Origin: Dokdonella koreensis DS-123
GTDB taxonomy: Bacteria > Pseudomonadota > Gammaproteobacteria > Xanthomonadales > Rhodanobacteraceae
Assembly (NCBI RefSeq): GCF_001632775.1
Contig: NZ_CP015249.1
Coordinates: 1,778,686 to 1,842,685, forward strand
Reading direction: 5' to 3'
Length of the DNA: 64,000 nt
Positions 12,231 through 54,806 of the stretch are shown piece by piece. Position 1 is the stretch's first letter, and the number at the start of each line of letters is the position of its first letter. The notes below the pieces were generated by a model, which did no database searches, was not told the DNA's origin, and was given only the letters and a program-made list of their open reading frames with translations. A program made the translations under genes and the position numbers.

Positions 12231-13568
12231 GTGAATGGAACCGTGCAGAACGCACCGAAAGTCGGCTTCGTCAGCCTGGGATGCCCCAAGGCCCTGGTGG
12301 ACTCCGAGCGCATCCTGACCCAGTTGCGGGTGGAAGGCTATGCGATCGTCCCGAGTTACGACGCCGCCGACGTCGTCGTCGTCAATACCTGCGGCTTCAT
12401 CGACGCCGCGGTCGAGGAATCGCTCGACGCGATCGGCGAGGCGCTGGAGGAGAACGGCCGCGTCATCGTCACCGGCTGCCTCGGCAAGCGCGCCGAGCTG
12501 ATCCGCGACACCCACCCGGACGTGCTGGCGATCAGCGGGCCGCAGGACTATTCGAGCGTGCTGGCGGCCGTCCACGCGGCGCTGCCGCCCAAGCGCGACC
12601 GCTTCACGGACCTGCTGCCGGTGCCGGACGACGGTGTCGGCATCAAGCTCACGCCCAAGCACTACGCCTATCTCAAGATCTCCGAGGGCTGCAATCACCG
12701 CTGCACGTTCTGCATCATTCCCTCGATGCGCGGCGACCTGGTCTCGCGGCCGGTGGACGAGGTGCTGGTCGAGGCCGAGAAGCTGGTGCGGGGCGGCGTC
12801 AAGGAGCTGCTGGTGATCTCGCAGGACACCAGTGCGTACGGCGTCGACCTGCGCTACGCCGAACGGACCTGGCGCGGCAGCCCGCGCCGCACGCGGATGA
12901 CCGAGCTGTGCGCCGCCCTCGGCGAACTCGGCGCCTGGGTGCGCCTGCACTACGTCTACCCGTACCCGCACGTGGACGAAGTGATCCCGCTGATGGCCGA
13001 GGGCCGGATCCTGCCGTACCTGGACATCCCGCTGCAGCACGCCAGTCCGCGCATCCTCAAGCTGATGAAGCGGCCCGGCGCGGTGGACAAGGTGCTCCAG
13101 CGCATCCAGGCCTGGCGCGCGGCCTGCCCGGACCTGACGCTGCGCAGCACCTTCATCGTCGGGTTTCCCGGCGAGACCGAGGCGGAGTTCGGCGAGCTGC
13201 TGGACTTCATCGAGGCGGCACAGCTCGATCGCGTGGGCTGCTTCGCCTATTCGCCGGTCGACGGCGCCAAGGCCAACGACCTGCCCGATCCGGTGCCCGA
13301 AGCGGTCAAGCAGGAGCGGCTCGAGCGCTTCATGACGATGCAGGCGCGGATCAGCGCCGCACGGCTCGCGGCCAAGGTCGGTCGCGAGCTCGACGTCATC
13401 GTCGACGAGGTGTCGCAGGGCCGCGCGATCGCGCGCTCCTCGGCCGACGCGCCGGAGATCGACGGCGTCGTGCACGTCCACGGCGCCGGCGGGCTGCGTC
13501 CCGGCCAGTTCGCGCGCGTGCGCGTGCGCGCCGCCTCCGAACACGACCTGGAAGCCGATCTGGTCTAG
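12231..13568 (+). CDS. rimO: Ribosomal protein S12 methylthiotransferase RimO
   Basis: RimO beta-methylthiolates the conserved aspartate of ribosomal protein S12. The 445-residue protein has the N-terminal UPF0004 domain ([20 protein letters not shown]), the radical-SAM cluster CNHRCTFC (Cys154, Cys158, Cys161), and a C-terminal TRAM domain ending in [19 protein letters not shown]. The GTG at 12231 gives an N-terminus matching E. coli RimO; GTG at 12243 is an alternative, and there is no in-frame ATG close by. Its stop codon TAG is the first CTAG of an eroded copy of the 271-bp repeat element. Confidence 0.96.
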
Positions 13569-13659
13569 GGCGTGTCATCCATCCCCCGGCAGGCCGCGCC
13601 GTTTTCTAGCGTGCGGCCGGGACAAGGAAGAGCGAGGCCGTGGACGCCGGTCCACGCCC
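13565..13659 (+). repeat. Eroded fragment of the 271-bp inverted-repeat element
   Basis: From the CTAG that includes the rimO stop, about 95 bp matches one end of the element in the orientation of the 24629 copy: the terminal CTAGGGCGTGTCATC, the GGCAGGCCGCGCCGTT segment, a CCGGGACAAGGAAGAG segment and the GTGGAC...GTCCAC hairpin. Several substitutions and small indels are visible, and the other half of the element is absent. It therefore looks like an older, decayed copy. Confidence 0.75.
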
Positions 13660-22286: not shown

Positions 22287-24632
22287 ATGCAGCCACCCGC
22301 GTTCCGCTTCGGCGCCTATCGACTGATTCCCGCAGCACGCGAGCTCTGGAAGGACGGCGGGCGCGTCACGCTGCCGCCGCGCGCATTCTCCTGCCTGGTC
22401 CTGCTGGTCGAGCAGCGTGCGCGCGCCGTCGGGCGCGAAGAGCTGATCGAGGCGCTGTGGCCGCGCGGCGTCGCTTCGGACGTCCAGCTCGGCCAGCTGA
22501 TCCTGCAATGCCGCCGCGCGATCGACGACGACGGGCAGACCCAGCACGCGATTCGCACGGTGGCCGGCTTCGGCTACCGCTGGGTGGCGCCGACCGTGAT
22601 CGAGGCGGCCGCCGCGGCCGCACCGGCGGATGGCGACACCGCCGCTGTGCCCGCAGCGACGGCCGCGCTCCCGCCGGCGCGGCGGCCGCGGACCGGCCTG
22701 CTGATCGCGCTGGCCGTGCTGCTGGCAGCGACGGCGGCCGCAGGCATCGCCTGGCTGCAGCGCGCGCCACGCCCGGTACCGCCGCCATCCGCAGCCGGCG
22801 AGCGCATCGTGGTGCTGCCGATCGTCGCGGCCGCCGACGACGAGCCGTGGTTGCGGCTGGGCGGCATGGACCTGGTCGGCGACCGGCTGCGGCGCAGCGG
22901 CATCGCCGTCGTGTCCAGCGATGCCACCGTCAGCCTGCTGCGCAGTCTCGGCGCCGACACCGCGGCCGCCGCGGCCCCGCCGGTGCGGGCGGCGCTGCAG
23001 CGCCTGTCCGGTGCGGCGATCCTGGTGCAGACGGTGGTGACGCGCGAGGCGGGCCGCTGGCGGGTGGCCATGACCGCGACCGCAGCCGACGCATCCACCG
23101 TGCGCAGCGAGTTCGAGGACGCCTCGCCGGTGGTCGCGCTGCACGCCGCGGCGGATCGGTTGAGCGCGGTGCTCGGGCACGTACCGGCCGTGTCGGCGGA
23201 GGCGGCCGGCGTCTCCGAGACCCTGCAGCGCGCGCGCGCCGCGATGCTGGCCAACGAGCCCGAGGCCGCACGCGCGATCCTGCGCGCCGATGCCGACCTG
23301 GTCCGCGACGAGCCGAAGCTGCGCCAGCACCTGGCCGAGGTCGACATCCGGACCGGTCGCGTCGACGACGCGCGCGCCGCCCTCGACGCCTTGCTGGCCG
23401 ATACCGAAGGCCAGGTTTCGGTGTTCCGTGCCGAGCTGCTGGCCGCGCGGGCGACGGTGGCGATCCGGTCCGGCGCGTTCGCCGAGGCCGGACGCTACGC
23501 CTCCGAGGGGATCGACCTGCATGCCGACGACGGTGACGCGATCCTGGTCGGGCGCCTGCACCTGACGCGCGGCGTCAGCCGCATCTCGCTGCAGGACCAT
23601 TCGGGCGCGCTGATCGACAACGGCATCGCCCGCGAGGAATTCCTGCGCGCCGGCGACATCGCCAGCGTCGCCCGCGTCGACGGCAACATCGGTGCGCTGG
23701 AGACGCTGCGCGGCCATCCGGCGCAGGCCGAGCCGTACCTGGAAGCGGCGATCGCGCAGTTCCAGGCGCTCGGCGTGGTGCAGGAGCCGATCAGCAACCT
23801 GCAGACGCTGTACGTCGCCCGCCGCCAGCAGCTCAAGAACGCGCAGGCGATGGCGACGATCGATCGTGCCTGGGCGATGCGCGAGCGCATGGTCAATCCG
23901 GACTCGCTGCTGTCGGTGCGGCTCTATCGCATCCAGGGCCTGCTGCGCGCCGGCCGCCACGGCGAGGCCTTCGCCCTGCTCGACGATCCGGCCAACGACC
24001 GCACCCCGGCCGATCCGTTCGAGAACGAGCGGCTGCGTCTGCTGCGCGCCGAGCTGGCCTGGGACCGCGGGCATCCGGCCGAGGCGCTGGCACTGCTCGA
24101 GCCGGTGCCCGAGGACGAGCTGGCCTCCGCCGACAGCGACATCATCCGCGTGGCCGTCGCCGTGCTGCGCTCGCGGCTGGAACAGGCGCTGGGTCGCCCG
24201 CCGGGCGGTCCCGGCACCGGTGGGGACGTGCTTCCGGCGGGCGACCGCACGCATCCGCGGATGCCGCTGCGCGGTCTGGCCGCCGCCAACCGGGCCTGGA
24301 CCGCCGGTCGCGCGGACGAGGCCGAGCGGCGGTTCCAGGCGGCGCTGTCACTGGCCGACGCGCAGGGCGTGGCCGAGACCATCGCCGCCGTCGTCGCCGA
24401 CTACACGCGGTTCCTGCTCGACGCCGGCCGCGTCCGCGAAGCGGCGGCGATCGCCGGCCGCGTCGCGCTCTGGGCCGAGCAGGACTACGGCTGCGCGCTG
24501 ACGCGCCTGCGCCTGGCCCATGCGCAGGGCCGCACCGACGCCTGGCAGGCCGCGCTCGACCAGGCCCGCCGGCTCGCCGGCGAGCGCAGGCTGCCTGCCG
24601 CGCTGGTCACCGCGCCGGTGGCCGCGCGCTAG
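22287..24632 (+). CDS. CadC-like transmembrane transcriptional regulator with TPR domain
   Basis: The 781-residue protein starts with an OmpR-type winged helix (about 1-105: FGAYRLIPAARELWKDG, REELIEALWPRG, AIRTVAGFGYRWVAP), then an Ala/Pro linker, one TM helix near 133-152 (TGLLIALAVLLAATAAAGIAWL), and a large C-terminal region with TPR-like helical repeats (about 300-770). This is the ToxR/CadC layout: DNA binding inside, sensing outside, no phosphotransfer. The stop codon TAG is shared with the terminal CTAG of a 271-bp repeat element. Target genes are unknown. Confidence 0.88.
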   Translation: MQPPAFRFGAYRLIPAARELWKDGGRVTLPPRAFSCLVLLVEQRARAVGREELIEALWPRGVASDVQLGQLILQCRRAIDDDGQTQHAIRTVAGFGYRWVAPTVIEAAAAAAPADGDTAAVPAATAALPPARRPRTGLLIALAVLLAATAAAGIAWLQRAPRPVPPPSAAGERIVVLPIVAAADDEPWLRLGGMDLVGDRLRRSGIAVVSSDATVSLLRSLGADTAAAAAPPVRAALQRLSGAAILVQTVVTREAGRWRVAMTATAADASTVRSEFEDASPVVALHAAADRLSAVLGHVPAVSAEAAGVSETLQRARAAMLANEPEAARAILRADADLVRDEPKLRQHLAEVDIRTGRVDDARAALDALLADTEGQVSVFRAELLAARATVAIRSGAFAEAGRYASEGIDLHADDGDAILVGRLHLTRGVSRISLQDHSGALIDNGIAREEFLRAGDIASVARVDGNIGALETLRGHPAQAEPYLEAAIAQFQALGVVQEPISNLQTLYVARRQQLKNAQAMATIDRAWAMRERMVNPDSLLSVRLYRIQGLLRAGRHGEAFALLDDPANDRTPADPFENERLRLLRAELAWDRGHPAEALALLEPVPEDELASADSDIIRVAVAVLRSRLEQALGRPPGGPGTGGDVLPAGDRTHPRMPLRGLAAANRAWTAGRADEAERRFQAALSLADAQGVAETIAAVVADYTRFLLDAGRVREAAAIAGRVALWAEQDYGCALTRLRLAHAQGRTDAWQAALDQARRLAGERRLPAALVTAPVAAR

Positions 24633-24899
24633 GGCGTGTCATCAATCCCTCGGTAGGCCGCGCCGTTCTTGCGTGCGTCCGGGCCAAGGAAGAGGGAGGA
24701 AGTGGACGTCGGTCCACGCCCGAGCGATGACGCAGTCCCGGGCGCACGCAAGAGCGGCCCTCCGGGTTGGCCCTGGAAAGCCGCCAGCGTGCGTTGCGCG
24801 GCTTGACCTGACGGCCAGTCAGGCGCGGCGCCACACAACACCCCCTGACGACTTTCCAGGGCCAACGCGACCTGCCGGGAGATTGATGACACGCCCTAG
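24629..24899 (-). mobile_element. 271-bp MITE-like inverted-repeat element, copy 1
   Basis: The element is bounded by CTAG on both sides and has long terminal inverted repeats beginning CTAGGGCGTGTCATCAATC. It lies in the opposite orientation to copies at 49073 and 54536. It has no coding capacity; short open frames inside are artefacts. Inner inverted repeats are the TTGGCCCTGGAAAG/CTTTCCAGGGCCAA pair and a CTTGCGTGCG-type pair enclosing the GTGGAC/GTCCAC hairpin. Its left CTAG contains the stop codon of the CadC-like gene. A transposase-dependent MITE is the likeliest identity; the flanking CTAG could be a 4-bp target duplication, as used by some IS5-family elements. Confidence 0.85.
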
Positions 24900-31808: not shown

Positions 31809-32420
31809 ATGAAGCTCTACTACGCCCCGGGCACCTGCGCCCTGGCTTGCTGGATCGCGCTGGAATGGGCCGGTGCGGATTACACGGTCGAGAAGGTCGA
31901 TCCGAAATCGGAGGCCTACCGGCGCATCAATCCGCTCGGCATGGTGCCCGCGCTCGACATCGGCGGGCCGCGTGCGATGACGCAGGCCGACGCGATCCTG
32001 CAGTACGTCGCCGAGAAGTACCCGCACCGGCACCTCGGTGTCGACGGCGATCCGGAACAGCGCTTCGCCTTCGTCGAGACGATGGCGTTCCTGACCGGCG
32101 ACTTCCACCCGGCGTTCTGGCCGTTCTTTTCGCCGCAGCGCTACACCACCCGCGAAGACGAGGCGGCGCTGAAGGAGGTGCGCGAGGCCTCCCACGCGCG
32201 CATCGATCGCGTCCTGACGCACCTGGACGGCCTGATCGGCGGCGCCGAACACGTCTACCAGGACCGGCGCACCGTGGCCGATCCCTATGCCTTCGTCATG
32301 GTGCGCTGGTCCGAACGGCTGCCCAAGACCTGGCGCGACTACGCCAACGTGGCTCGCTTCATGACGGCGATGCAGGCCGACCCGGCGGTCGAGCGGGTGC
32401 TGGCGCAGTCGAGGGCCTAG
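31809..32420 (+). CDS. Glutathione S-transferase family protein
   Basis: The 203-residue protein starts MKLYYAPGTCALACWIALEW, a beta-class-like N-terminus with Cys10 in the glutathione site, continues with NPLGMVPALDI (the cis-proline loop) and TQADAILQYVAEKY, then the all-helical C-terminal domain including the conserved N-cap (TVADPYAFVMVRW). A good ribosome site GAAGGAGA precedes it. It is likely co-transcribed with the aminotransferase. Substrate unknown. Confidence 0.92.
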   Translation: MKLYYAPGTCALACWIALEWAGADYTVEKVDPKSEAYRRINPLGMVPALDIGGPRAMTQADAILQYVAEKYPHRHLGVDGDPEQRFAFVETMAFLTGDFHPAFWPFFSPQRYTTREDEAALKEVREASHARIDRVLTHLDGLIGGAEHVYQDRRTVADPYAFVMVRWSERLPKTWRDYANVARFMTAMQADPAVERVLAQSRA

Positions 32421-48396: not shown

Positions 48397-49076
48397 CGCC
48401 CATGGCAAAGCAACCCTGCATCATCGCTCCCTCGATCCTCTCGGCCGATTTCGCCCGCCTCGGCGAGGAGGTCGATCGCGTGCTGGCGGCCGGTGCCGAC
48501 TGGGTGCATTTCGACGTGATGGACAACCACTACGTGCCGAACCTGACGATCGGGCCGCTGGTCTGCGAGGCGCTGCGCAAGCACGGCATCACCGCCCCGA
48601 TCGACGTGCACCTGATGGTCAAGCCGGTCGACCGCATCATTCCCGATTTCGCCAAGGCCGGTGCGACGCTGATCAGCTTCCACCCGGAGGCCAGCGAGCA
48701 CATCGACCGTACGATCCAGCTGATCAAGGCCTCCGGCTGCCAGGCCGGCCTGGTCTTCAATCCGGCCACGCCGCTCGCCTATCTGGACCACGTGCTCGAC
48801 CAGCTGGACCTGGTCCTGATCATGTCGGTCAACCCCGGCTTCGGTGGCCAGAGCTTCATTCCATCGGCGCTGGACAAGCTGCGCAGCGTGCGCGAGCGCA
48901 TCGACCGCAGCGGCCGGCCGGTCCGGCTGGAGATCGACGGCGGCGTCAAGGCCGACAACATCGCGGCGATCGCCGCGGCCGGCGCGGACACCTTCGTCGC
49001 CGGTTCGGCGATCTTCGGCCAGGCCGACTACGCCGGTGTCATCGCCGCGATGCGCCAGGCCGTCGCCGCGGTCTAG
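48393..49076 (+). CDS. rpe: Ribulose-phosphate 3-epimerase
   Basis: The 227-residue TIM-barrel enzyme interconverts ribulose-5-phosphate and xylulose-5-phosphate. Metal and catalytic segments are [58 protein letters not shown] and LEIDGGVK. The ATG at 48393 overlaps the djlA stop; ATG 48402 is possible. Its TAG stop is part of the terminal CTAG of a full copy of the 271-bp element, so any downstream gene is cut off by that insertion. Confidence 0.97.
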
Positions 49077-49343
49077 GGCGTGTCATCAATCCCCCGGCAG
49101 GTCGCGTTGGCCCTGGAAAGTCGTCAGGGGGTGTAGTGTGGCGCCGCGCCTGACTGGCCGTCAGGTCAAGCCGCGCAACGCACGCTGGCGGCTTTCCAGG
49201 GCCAACCCGTAGGGCCGCTCTTGCGTGCGCCCGGGACTGCGTCATCGCTCGGGCGTGGACCGACGTCCACTTCCTCCCTCTTCCTTGTCACGGACGCACG
49301 CAAGAACGGCGCGGCCTACCGAGGGATTGATGACACGCCCTAG
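49073..49343 (+). mobile_element. 271-bp MITE-like inverted-repeat element, copy 2
   Basis: Ends are CTAGGGCGTGTCATCAATC and its inverted complement, each including CTAG. It has the same orientation as the 54536 copy and I count only two differing bases between them (GTG against GAG in the left end, GTCAC against GTCCC in the right half). The left CTAG supplies the rpe stop codon. No open frame inside encodes a transposase. The near identity of two copies 5 kb apart indicates recent movement or gene conversion. Confidence 0.88.
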
Positions 49344-49451
49344 GGCCAGGCGCGCCGTTCGCTTCGCCCGGCAGCGCACCGTGCCGAAAAATCCGCAGCG
49401 CGGTACCGGCGGCGGAGGGCGCGGTACCGGCTGCGGAACGAAAACCTGAGG

Positions 49452-49637
49452 TCAGCGATTGTCCGCGACGTGAACACGGTATCGGCCGGCCGGCGCCGGT
49501 CCTGCGCGTCCCGGCGCCCGGCTGCCGGTCTTCGCGTCCGCAGGCGCGCCGCCGTGGGCGAGCAGCCACACGAGGAACGCCAGCCGGGTGGGATGCAGCC
49601 AGGGACGCGTGACATCCGGCGGCGCGGGCCGCTTCAT
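49452..49637 (-). CDS. Small predicted exported/membrane protein (61 aa), micro-ORF 3
   Basis: This 61-residue product begins MKRPAPPDVTRPWLHPTRLA, has one short hydrophobic stretch (LAFLVWLLAHG) and a Gly/Pro/Arg-rich tail. It is not recognised. Support comes from context: its ATG overlaps the stop of the preceding micro-ORF (ATGA), the third member of a chain with identical junctions, and codon third positions are strongly G/C like real genes here. Confidence 0.5.
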   Translation of the reverse strand: MKRPAPPDVTRPWLHPTRLAFLVWLLAHGGAPADAKTGSRAPGRAGPAPAGRYRVHVADNR

Positions 49638-53063: not shown

Positions 53064-54539
53064 GTGATTTCGCAGGACCAGTTCGATGCGTTGGCGGCCC
53101 AGGGCTACAACCGGATTCCCGTGGTGCGTGAGGTCCTGTCCGACCTGGACACGCCGCTTTCGGTCTATCTGAAGCTGGCGGACGGCCCGTACGCCTACCT
53201 GTTCGAATCCGTGGAGGGGGGCGAGACCTGGGGGCGCCATTCGATCATCGGCCTGCCGTGCCGGCGCGTCTATTCGCTGCGTGGCCACCGGCTCGACGTG
53301 GAGGACCTGGGCGAGGTCGTCGAGACCCGCGAGCTGGCCGACCCGCTGGCCGAGATCGAGGCGCTGCGCGCGCAGTACCGCGTGCCGCAGCTGCCCGGGC
53401 TGCCGGCGTTCAGCGGTGGCCTGGTCGGCTACTTCGGCTTCGAGACGATCGGCTGGATCGAGCCGCGGCTGGCCGGCGACGACAAGCCCGACCAGCTCGG
53501 CACCCCCGACGCGCTGCTGATGCTGAGCGAGGAAGTGGCGGTCTTCGACAATCTCAAGGGGCGGCTGTACCTGATCGTCCACGCCGACCCGGCGCAGCCG
53601 CAGGCCTACGCACGGGCGCGCAGGCGGCTGGACGAGCTGGCGTTCCGATTGCGCCACGCGGGCGCCGCCTATCCGGAAATGCTCGATCCCAAGCCGCTGG
53701 ACGAGGCCGATTTCGTCTCGGGCTTCACGCGGGAAGGCTTCGAGGCGGCGGTGCGGCGCGCCCAGGAGTACATCCGTGCCGGCGACATCTTCCAGGTCGT
53801 CCTGTCGCAGCGGTTGAGCGTGCCGTTCCGGGCGCGCCCGGTCGACGTCTATCGGGCGCTGCGCTCGATGAATCCTTCGCCGTACATGTACTTCATCGAC
53901 CTGGGCGCCACGAAGATCGTCGGGTCCTCGCCGGAGATCCTCGTCCGCCAGCAGCACGGCAAGGTCGTGCTGCGTCCGATCGCCGGCACACGCCCGCGCG
54001 GGGCGACCGTCGAGGAGGACCTGGCACTGGAACAGGAACTTTTGGCCGATCCGAAGGAGCGCGCCGAGCACCTGATGCTGATCGACCTGGGCCGCAACGA
54101 CGTCGGGCGCGTCAGCAAGACCGGGACGGTGCGCCTCACCGACAGCTTCGTCGTCGAGCGCTACTCCCACGTCATGCACATCGTCAGCCAGGTCGAGGGC
54201 GAGCTCGGCGAGAACCTCGGCTACATGGACGTGCTGAAGGCGGCGTTCCCGGCCGGCACCGTCAGTGGCGCGCCGAAGATCCGGGCGCTGGAGGTGATCC
54301 GCGAGCTGGAGCCGGTCAAGCGCAACATCTATGCCGGGGCGATCGGCTACATCGGCTGGTGGGGCGATGCCGACACCGCGATCGCGATCCGCACCGCCGT
54401 GATCCAGGACGGCCGGCTGCACGTGCAGGCCGGTGCCGGCATCGTGTTCGACTCCGATCCCGCGCGCGAGTGGGAGGAAACCATGAACAAGGGGCGCGCG
54501 CTGTTCCGCGCGGTGGCGCAGGCGGCCGGCGGGCTCTAG
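53064..54539 (+). CDS. trpE: Anthranilate synthase component I
   Basis: The 491-residue enzyme converts chorismate to anthranilate with ammonia from TrpG. It has the N-terminal domain (DTPLSVYLKLADGPYAYLFESVEGGE, with the LLES-like tryptophan site) and chorismate-binding core marks FQVVLSQR, PSPYMYFIDLG, GSSPEILV, IAGTRPRG, DLGRNDVGRV and GTVSGAPKIRALE. GTG start follows GAGGAAAG. No trpG follows; the TAG stop is joined to a 271-bp element and then to unrelated secreted-protein genes. The amidotransferase must be encoded elsewhere. Confidence 0.97.
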   Translation: MISQDQFDALAAQGYNRIPVVREVLSDLDTPLSVYLKLADGPYAYLFESVEGGETWGRHSIIGLPCRRVYSLRGHRLDVEDLGEVVETRELADPLAEIEALRAQYRVPQLPGLPAFSGGLVGYFGFETIGWIEPRLAGDDKPDQLGTPDALLMLSEEVAVFDNLKGRLYLIVHADPAQPQAYARARRRLDELAFRLRHAGAAYPEMLDPKPLDEADFVSGFTREGFEAAVRRAQEYIRAGDIFQVVLSQRLSVPFRARPVDVYRALRSMNPSPYMYFIDLGATKIVGSSPEILVRQQHGKVVLRPIAGTRPRGATVEEDLALEQELLADPKERAEHLMLIDLGRNDVGRVSKTGTVRLTDSFVVERYSHVMHIVSQVEGELGENLGYMDVLKAAFPAGTVSGAPKIRALEVIRELEPVKRNIYAGAIGYIGWWGDADTAIAIRTAVIQDGRLHVQAGAGIVFDSDPAREWEETMNKGRALFRAVAQAAGGL

Positions 54540-54806
54540 GGCGAGTCATCAATCCCCCGGCAGGTCGCGTTGGCCCTGGAAAGTCGTCAGGGGGTGTAGT
54601 GTGGCGCCGCGCCTGACTGGCCGTCAGGTCAAGCCGCGCAACGCACGCTGGCGGCTTTCCAGGGCCAACCCGTAGGGCCGCTCTTGCGTGCGCCCGGGAC
54701 TGCGTCATCGCTCGGGCGTGGACCGACGTCCACTTCCTCCCTCTTCCTTGTCCCGGACGCACGCAAGAACGGCGCGGCCTACCGAGGGATTGATGACACG
54801 CCCTAG
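54536..54806 (+). mobile_element. 271-bp MITE-like inverted-repeat element, copy 3
   Basis: Bounded by CTAG at 54536-54539 (containing the trpE stop) and 54803-54806. Terminal repeats span about 34 bp each side. Inside are two further stem structures: TTGGCCCTGGAAAG (54570-54583) with CTTTCCAGGGCCAA (54655-54668), and CTTGCGTGCGCCCGGGA (54683-54699) with its near-perfect complement (54751-54767), the latter capped by GTGGAC-CGAC-GTCCAC (54718-54733). The left end has GCGAGTC in place of GCGTGTC. The whole could fold into a two-armed cloverleaf. Confidence 0.88.

Follow-up and report, generated by a model that had tools for sequence, protein, structure and literature searches.

The gene rpe of Dokdonella koreensis DS-123 (G000) ends in a TAG that also forms the last three bases of the CTAG at one end of a repeated hairpin element, which raises the question of how a repeat comes to lie on a stop codon. 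The window (the whole 64,000-nucleotide stretch analysed, G000:C1:1778686-1842685) holds four such loci. According to the first-pass annotation, the TAG at each of them, rimO, a CadC-like gene, rpe and trpE, ends a gene reading toward the element, and this is borne out at all four, the rimO copy being only a remnant of about 95 bp. The features of the window are as follows.

12243..13568, + strand: rimO-like gene (gene call; Radical_SAM, UPF0004 and TRAM_2 matches; the name rimO is taken from the first-pass annotation)
13565..13659, - strand: remnant of about 95 bp, with a single end, on the rimO stop codon (TAG 13566-13568)
22287..24632, + strand: CadC-like gene (gene call; Trans_reg_C PF00486 plus TPR)
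24629..24899, - strand: full-length copy on the stop codon of the CadC-like regulator (TAG 24630-24632), inverted relative to the rpe copy
32417..32420, + strand: one example of an unoccupied GNNCTAGNNC target coinciding with a gene stop (G000:1811099)
48402..49076, + strand: rpe, ribulose-phosphate 3-epimerase (gene call; Pfam PF00834)
49073..49343, + strand: full-length 271-bp MITE copy on the rpe stop codon (letters, alignment, gene calls)
49073..49076, + strand: left CTAG of the presumed target duplication of the rpe copy, its TAG being the rpe stop (49074-49076; letters, gene calls)
49340..49343, + strand: right CTAG of the presumed target duplication of the rpe copy (letters)
53064..54539, + strand: trpE, anthranilate synthase component I (gene call; PF00425, PF04715)
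54536..54806, + strand: full-length copy on the trpE stop codon (TAG 54537-54539), left end GGGCGAGTC with one mismatch

A 271-bp hairpin element appears to have spread recently through the genome

The end-pattern search covered the whole contig of this single-contig genome (4.45 Mb), with alignment scoring of 40 of the 71 first-look candidates. It yielded 21 full-length copies, each 271 bp from CTAG to CTAG, with pairwise identities of 97-100% (mean 98.4%); over the 267 bases compared, the rpe copy does not differ from the one at G000:162908. The element possesses near-perfect terminal inverted repeats (GGGCGTGTCATCAAT...) and two internal stem-loops, and the rpe copy as RNA is predicted to pair from end to end (-189 kcal/mol, z -14.8). 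No gene of at least 40 codons was called inside any of the 21 copies. Being short, bounded by terminal inverted repeats, devoid of a transposase gene and present in many near-identical copies, the element has the properties of a MITE and appears to have spread recently through this genome. Both flanks are CTAG in 20 of the 21 full copies. The copy at G000:237884-238154 (L034:4385-4655) is the sole one with unequal flanks, CTAG and CTAA, and because of it the duplication may comprise TA only (2 bp). Positions 27-133 of the full element show a match of about 70% to the inverted other half, which suggests growth by duplication. A 148-bp form with both ends intact, located at G000:1001234-1001381 (L049:4235-4382), also lies on a gene stop.

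Full-length copies lie almost exclusively on stop codons

With genes called by a hexamer model trained on sequence of this genome, 19 of the 21 full copies genome-wide adjoin a gene that reads toward them and whose stop codon is the TAG in one of the element's terminal CTAGs. Pfam matches were found for 18 of the 20 upstream genes tested, which comprise these 19 and rimO; acetolactate synthase small subunit, LpxB, MurJ, rpe and trpE are among those matched. The two exceptions are the copy at 450272, between divergent genes, and the copy at 1497260, beside an older copy that itself has a gene stop at its far end; small unannotated ORFs at these two places had no coding score. Among partial or degenerate candidates, 8 of the 14 examined abut a predicted stop, one of the 8 being a weak 51-codon call. 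In a nested case at G000:472076-472357 (L036:4577-4858), a young copy is located between a gene stop and an older degenerate copy. Here the CTAG common to the gene and the old element is reused as target, and such nesting is expected, since CTAGGGC at the end of the element corresponds to half of the preferred target described below.

To gauge these counts, CTAGs were collected from 32 scattered 20-kb stretches (640 kb) that were hand-picked at round coordinates, not drawn with a random generator, and contain no element end. CTAG occurs 112 times in this sample, compared with 1535 occurrences of GTAG and 1424 of CTAC. Gene stops account for 33 of the 112, intergenic sequence for 59 and coding sequence for 20, even though 88% of the sample is coding, in support of the proposed scarcity of CTAG in coding DNA. 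None of the 21 full copies is located inside a called gene, compared with 20 of the 112 control CTAGs. Elements are found on stops at 19:2, non-coding control CTAGs at 33:59 (n = 92; one-sided Fisher p = 4e-6). When CTAGs within 90 bp of an adjacent start are removed, the comparison is 19:2 versus 29:37 (p = 1e-4); an adjacent start is that near for 4 of the 33 control stop CTAGs and for 0 of the 19 elements, a difference that is not significant. The first-pass annotation had envisaged a CTAG-targeting transposable element enriched at C-TAG gene ends, and had asked whether most copies lie elsewhere or whether CTAG is common enough at gene ends to produce the pattern by chance. The bulk of the copies do not lie elsewhere, CTAG stops are too few among the controls to explain 19 of 21, and both the targeting and the enrichment are supported. 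Since stops exceed their share among non-coding control CTAGs, the rarity of CTAG alone is insufficient to explain the placement. The four window cases would not settle the matter on their own, as stops make up 33 of the 47 empty non-coding sites listed that carry the full motif.

The preferred target is longer than CTAG and is found mostly at stops

Inspection of 8 positions per arm, and thus a post hoc search, showed that the third base outward from the CTAG is C in 30 of 42 element arms, compared with 24 of 66 control stop arms (p = 7e-4) and 15 of 116 control intergenic arms (p = 5e-12). The target is close to the palindrome GNNCTAGNNC, often with G at the second position outward, and represents a statistical flank preference. 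In a logistic model, the third-base term has a p value of 6e-5, stop status of 0.07 and GC of 0.12. Ends from other genomes provide partly independent support. Third-base C is present at 12 of 21 distinct IS-type ends in other genera of the family, a set that allows up to two mismatches and includes a few doubtful ends (p = 9e-4 against pooled controls of this genome; not significant against control stops alone, p = 0.13), and at 10 of 21 MITE ends of other genomes (p = 0.014 against pooled controls of this genome). The proposal that a CTAG target explains the bias toward gene ends is consequently upheld in part: the enrichment is real, but CTAG alone does not suffice and the preferred site is nearer to GNNCTAGNNC.

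A census of empty GNNCTAGNNC sites, drawn from those listed in the first 2.89 Mb (of 4.45 Mb) after exclusion of element ends and recognized old copies, contains 54 sites, with 33 at gene stops, 14 intergenic and 7 coding. One of the 33 empty stop sites, 2824687, adjoins an end-like sequence with 2 mismatches and may be an old insertion. The -10-like context TAGnnT is found on at least one strand at 36 of 59 control intergenic CTAGs versus 7 of 33 stop CTAGs (p = 4e-4), and 21 of 39 strand-specific TAGnnT matches (L059-L070, L109-L128) point to a start within 200 bp. As intergenic CTAGs are often -10-like and have starts nearby, CTAG may mark promoters in this GC-rich genome, and most of the intergenic CTAGs that are not stops may lie in promoters. 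With 33 of the 54 empty sites listed at stops, most good targets are stops, and the majority of other intergenic CTAGs carry the wrong flanks. Stratification by motif leads to an expectation of 12.8 copies on stops where 19 are seen (P of 19 or more 0.002; Mantel-Haenszel OR 7.2, p = 0.015). The motif therefore leaves part of the excess unexplained. The residue could reflect purifying selection, a target motif longer still, or true targeting of gene ends; of these we favour selection.

The element most likely derives from an IS5-family insertion sequence

Other genera of the family contain elements of roughly 835 bp (L090 in G014 and L084 in G028) that are flanked by CTAG and whose ends, AATTGATGACACGCCCTAG and variants, almost match those of the MITE. 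The domain scan, carried out on the L090 frames, identified DUF4096 (PF13340) and DDE_Tnp_1 (PF01609); the reading frames of both elements are interrupted. Judging by this sequence similarity, the 271-bp element is most likely an IS5-family-derived MITE. An origin from IS630, which reportedly prefers TA in CTAG (Tenzen and Ohtsubo 1991), was also considered and rejected. IS630 possesses a DDE_3 domain (PF13358), for which no match was found in G000, whereas DUF4096 and DDE_Tnp_1 are the domains of L090, the autonomous-type element with MITE-like ends.

G000 itself yielded no intact cognate transposase. A decayed IS5-like remnant at G000:2202195-2204023 (L058:2196-4024) has related ends and a broken DUF4096/DDE_Tnp_1 frame, and its left CTAG is located four bases past the TGA stop of a gene. 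At about 810.4-811.6 kb of G000 (L114:10352-11564), a 339-amino-acid DDE_Tnp_1 frame lies between 17-nt inverted repeats (GGGCACCTCGAAAAACC) unrelated to the MITE ends; this element at 810.9 kb is apparently a separate, possibly intact IS. With only the decayed remnant and a DDE_Tnp_1 gene with unrelated ends in this genome, the burst appears to have lost its partner or to have used an undetected one.

Related elements in other genomes lie on stops less often

In a named genome collection, the exact 20-base end pattern is present at 8 loci, distributed over three Xanthomonas species (four loci), a Luteimonas, another Lysobacteraceae bacterium and two MAGs labelled Betaproteobacteria and Kaiparowitsia. 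An end-pattern survey of 233 family genomes returned matches in 20, G000 included. Of 20 surveyed places inspected, 17 lie in called genes and L203 lies outside genes without a TAG end; the other two are an element-like copy off a stop (L196) and an IS end on a stop (L215). In five Lysobacteraceae genomes, 30 loci taken from 32 matches reduce to 23 distinct ones, from which four were left out by eye: L229 and L232 (inside genes), L238 (TCGGGCG end) and L233 (doubtful; it abutted a predicted stop). Nine of the resulting 19 distinct MITE loci lie on stops, fewer than in D. koreensis (p = 0.005), with genes called by the D. koreensis hexamer model, which is less well fitted to other genomes. IS-type ends in other genomes lie on stops in 5 of 21 cases.

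Target sequence and selection probably account for the stop bias

We consider it likely that the element is a non-autonomous IS5-derived MITE whose stop bias results mainly from the GNNCTAGNNC target combined with selection and not from recognition of stop codons. An IS5-family (DUF4096/DDE_Tnp_1) insertion sequence would have given rise to the MITE, and the transposase would duplicate CTAG while preferring the longer palindrome. Genes being strongly depleted of CTAG, and most intergenic CTAGs resembling -10 boxes with the wrong flanks, the good targets left over would be mostly CTAG stop codons. Insertion at such a site would copy the stop rather than destroy it. Copies on stops would then persist because the stop is duplicated and the protein left intact. 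The stop bias would be mainly a by-product of target sequence plus selection, as the remaining good targets are mostly stops and insertions there would do little harm.

The first-pass annotation had worded the relationship differently, with the element supplying the TAG of the upstream gene; elements carrying their own CTAG ends would then make new stops by inserting near gene ends. The congeners of D. koreensis bear on this reading. A search of 9 further genomes of the genus returned no match to the end pattern. In the nearest relative, G001, the sites that could be compared hold no element; of the 22 sites, 14 had an alignable orthologue in the sequence covered, 13 of them with full copies in D. 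koreensis and one with the rimO remnant. G001 has TGA at 10 of these 14 stops and TAG at 4, with CTAG at only 2, which speaks for new stops in D. koreensis. Ordinary TAG genes of D. koreensis turn over similarly, however, corresponding to TAG in 4, TGA in 7 and TAA in 1 of 12 G001 genes (one more is ambiguous), and 0 of 5 ordinary CTAG-ending genes kept CTAG. Creation of new stops is also at odds with the CTAG at both ends of nearly all copies, with gene ends that fall at the same codon position in 10 of the 14 orthologues and with the empty single-CTAG stops of a DMT_6 gene in G001 (L163) and of trpE in G005 (L169). We regard new stops as highly improbable, and the wording is probably wrong as a mechanism. 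Since 10 of the 14 comparable genes of G001, which lacks the element, stop at the same codon position, an existing CTAG stop was most likely duplicated on insertion, the ancestral codon of individual genes being unproven.

The transposition complex might also be guided to stops by more than sequence. IS5-like machinery could prefer the ends of transcribed or translated genes in addition to GNNCTAGNNC, responding to termination-linked DNA structure such as terminator supercoiling, to R-loops or to ribosome or Rho release. Such guidance would account for the over-representation of stops that persists after motif stratification and after removal of CTAGs close to starts. On the other side, a large part of the excess goes with sequence (stop status has a p value of 0.07 once third base and GC are in the model), comparable elements in other genomes occupy a stop at just 9 of 19 loci, and purifying selection predicts the same residue. 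Gene-end guidance is accordingly unlikely; if true, it would represent a mobile element with the stop codon as its target duplication, spreading without breaking genes. Selection for function could instead have kept the copies in place, with a 271-nt hairpin at the mRNA 3' end stabilising the transcript or blocking read-through. The predicted RNA fold of the rpe copy, which starts inside the stop codon, is what such a role would call for, but palindromes are expected of any MITE. At the rpe copy, the combination of GC-rich hairpin and U-tract that characterizes an intrinsic terminator is absent: no U-tract terminator was found on either strand of window positions 49000-49500, where a promoter scan also returned nothing. 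The 5 Rfam matches at this copy (up to E 1) all score far below the gathering scores. None of 107 pairs among 19 distinct copies has changed on both sides and several mutations break pairs, the copies occur in both orientations relative to the upstream gene (11 like the rpe copy, 8 opposite), and the end pattern is missing from the 9 congeners searched. These observations argue against the suggestion that the hairpins act as terminators, a role in mRNA stability is unneeded to explain the placement, and maintenance by function seems very doubtful. Target choice combined with selection remains the reading that we prefer.

Significance and comparison with known systems

The D. koreensis element suggests how insertion can stay nearly harmless in a GC-rich, gene-dense genome: a parasite need not evolve recognition of gene ends if codon usage and promoter composition confine the rare palindromic word that it targets mostly to stop codons. 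With 21 near-identical copies and countable empty targets, target choice and purifying selection can be tested against each other directly. The case also cautions that repeats on stop codons are not necessarily regulatory 3' UTR elements. No report of an IS5-type MITE confined to stop codons was found in titles and abstracts of open PMC papers; relative to this literature, an IS5-type MITE that lies almost only on stops and has a measurable target-based explanation is apparently new.

Escherichia coli IS5 duplicates the target Py-T-A-Pu, most often CTAG (15 of 24 tabulated sites; PMC5493358). Element and IS5 thus share a YTAR/CTAG duplication, and the DDE transposase of IS5 belongs to the same broad family. 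In contrast, IS5 is autonomous, and the available text of that paper discusses insertions in upstream, stress-destabilised DNA and does not mention placement on stops (PMC5493358). MITEPsy1 of Pseudomonas syringae is a probable IS5-family MITE that generates a 4-nt duplication at its CTAG or YTAA insertion sites (PMC3189936). It differs in its length of 100 nt and its terminal repeats, and no stop-codon bias is reported in the available part of its description; two of its 6 copies interrupt genes, another two are intergenic and the remaining two lie within other transposons (PMC3189936). The termini of GTAG-tagged REPs, which are often RAYT-associated, often provide the flanking ORF with its TAG stop (PMC3733652). 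These repeats are 20-40 bp long with an unpaired GTAG at one end, while the D. koreensis element is 271 bp long with CTAG at both ends, IS5-like terminal repeats and ends that are paired in the predicted fold, and does not match the form of GTAG REPs or REPINs. Palindromic and with a TAG stop at the terminus like the element described here, the GTAG REPs nevertheless represent a precedent for a repeat whose end coincides with the stop codon of a gene.
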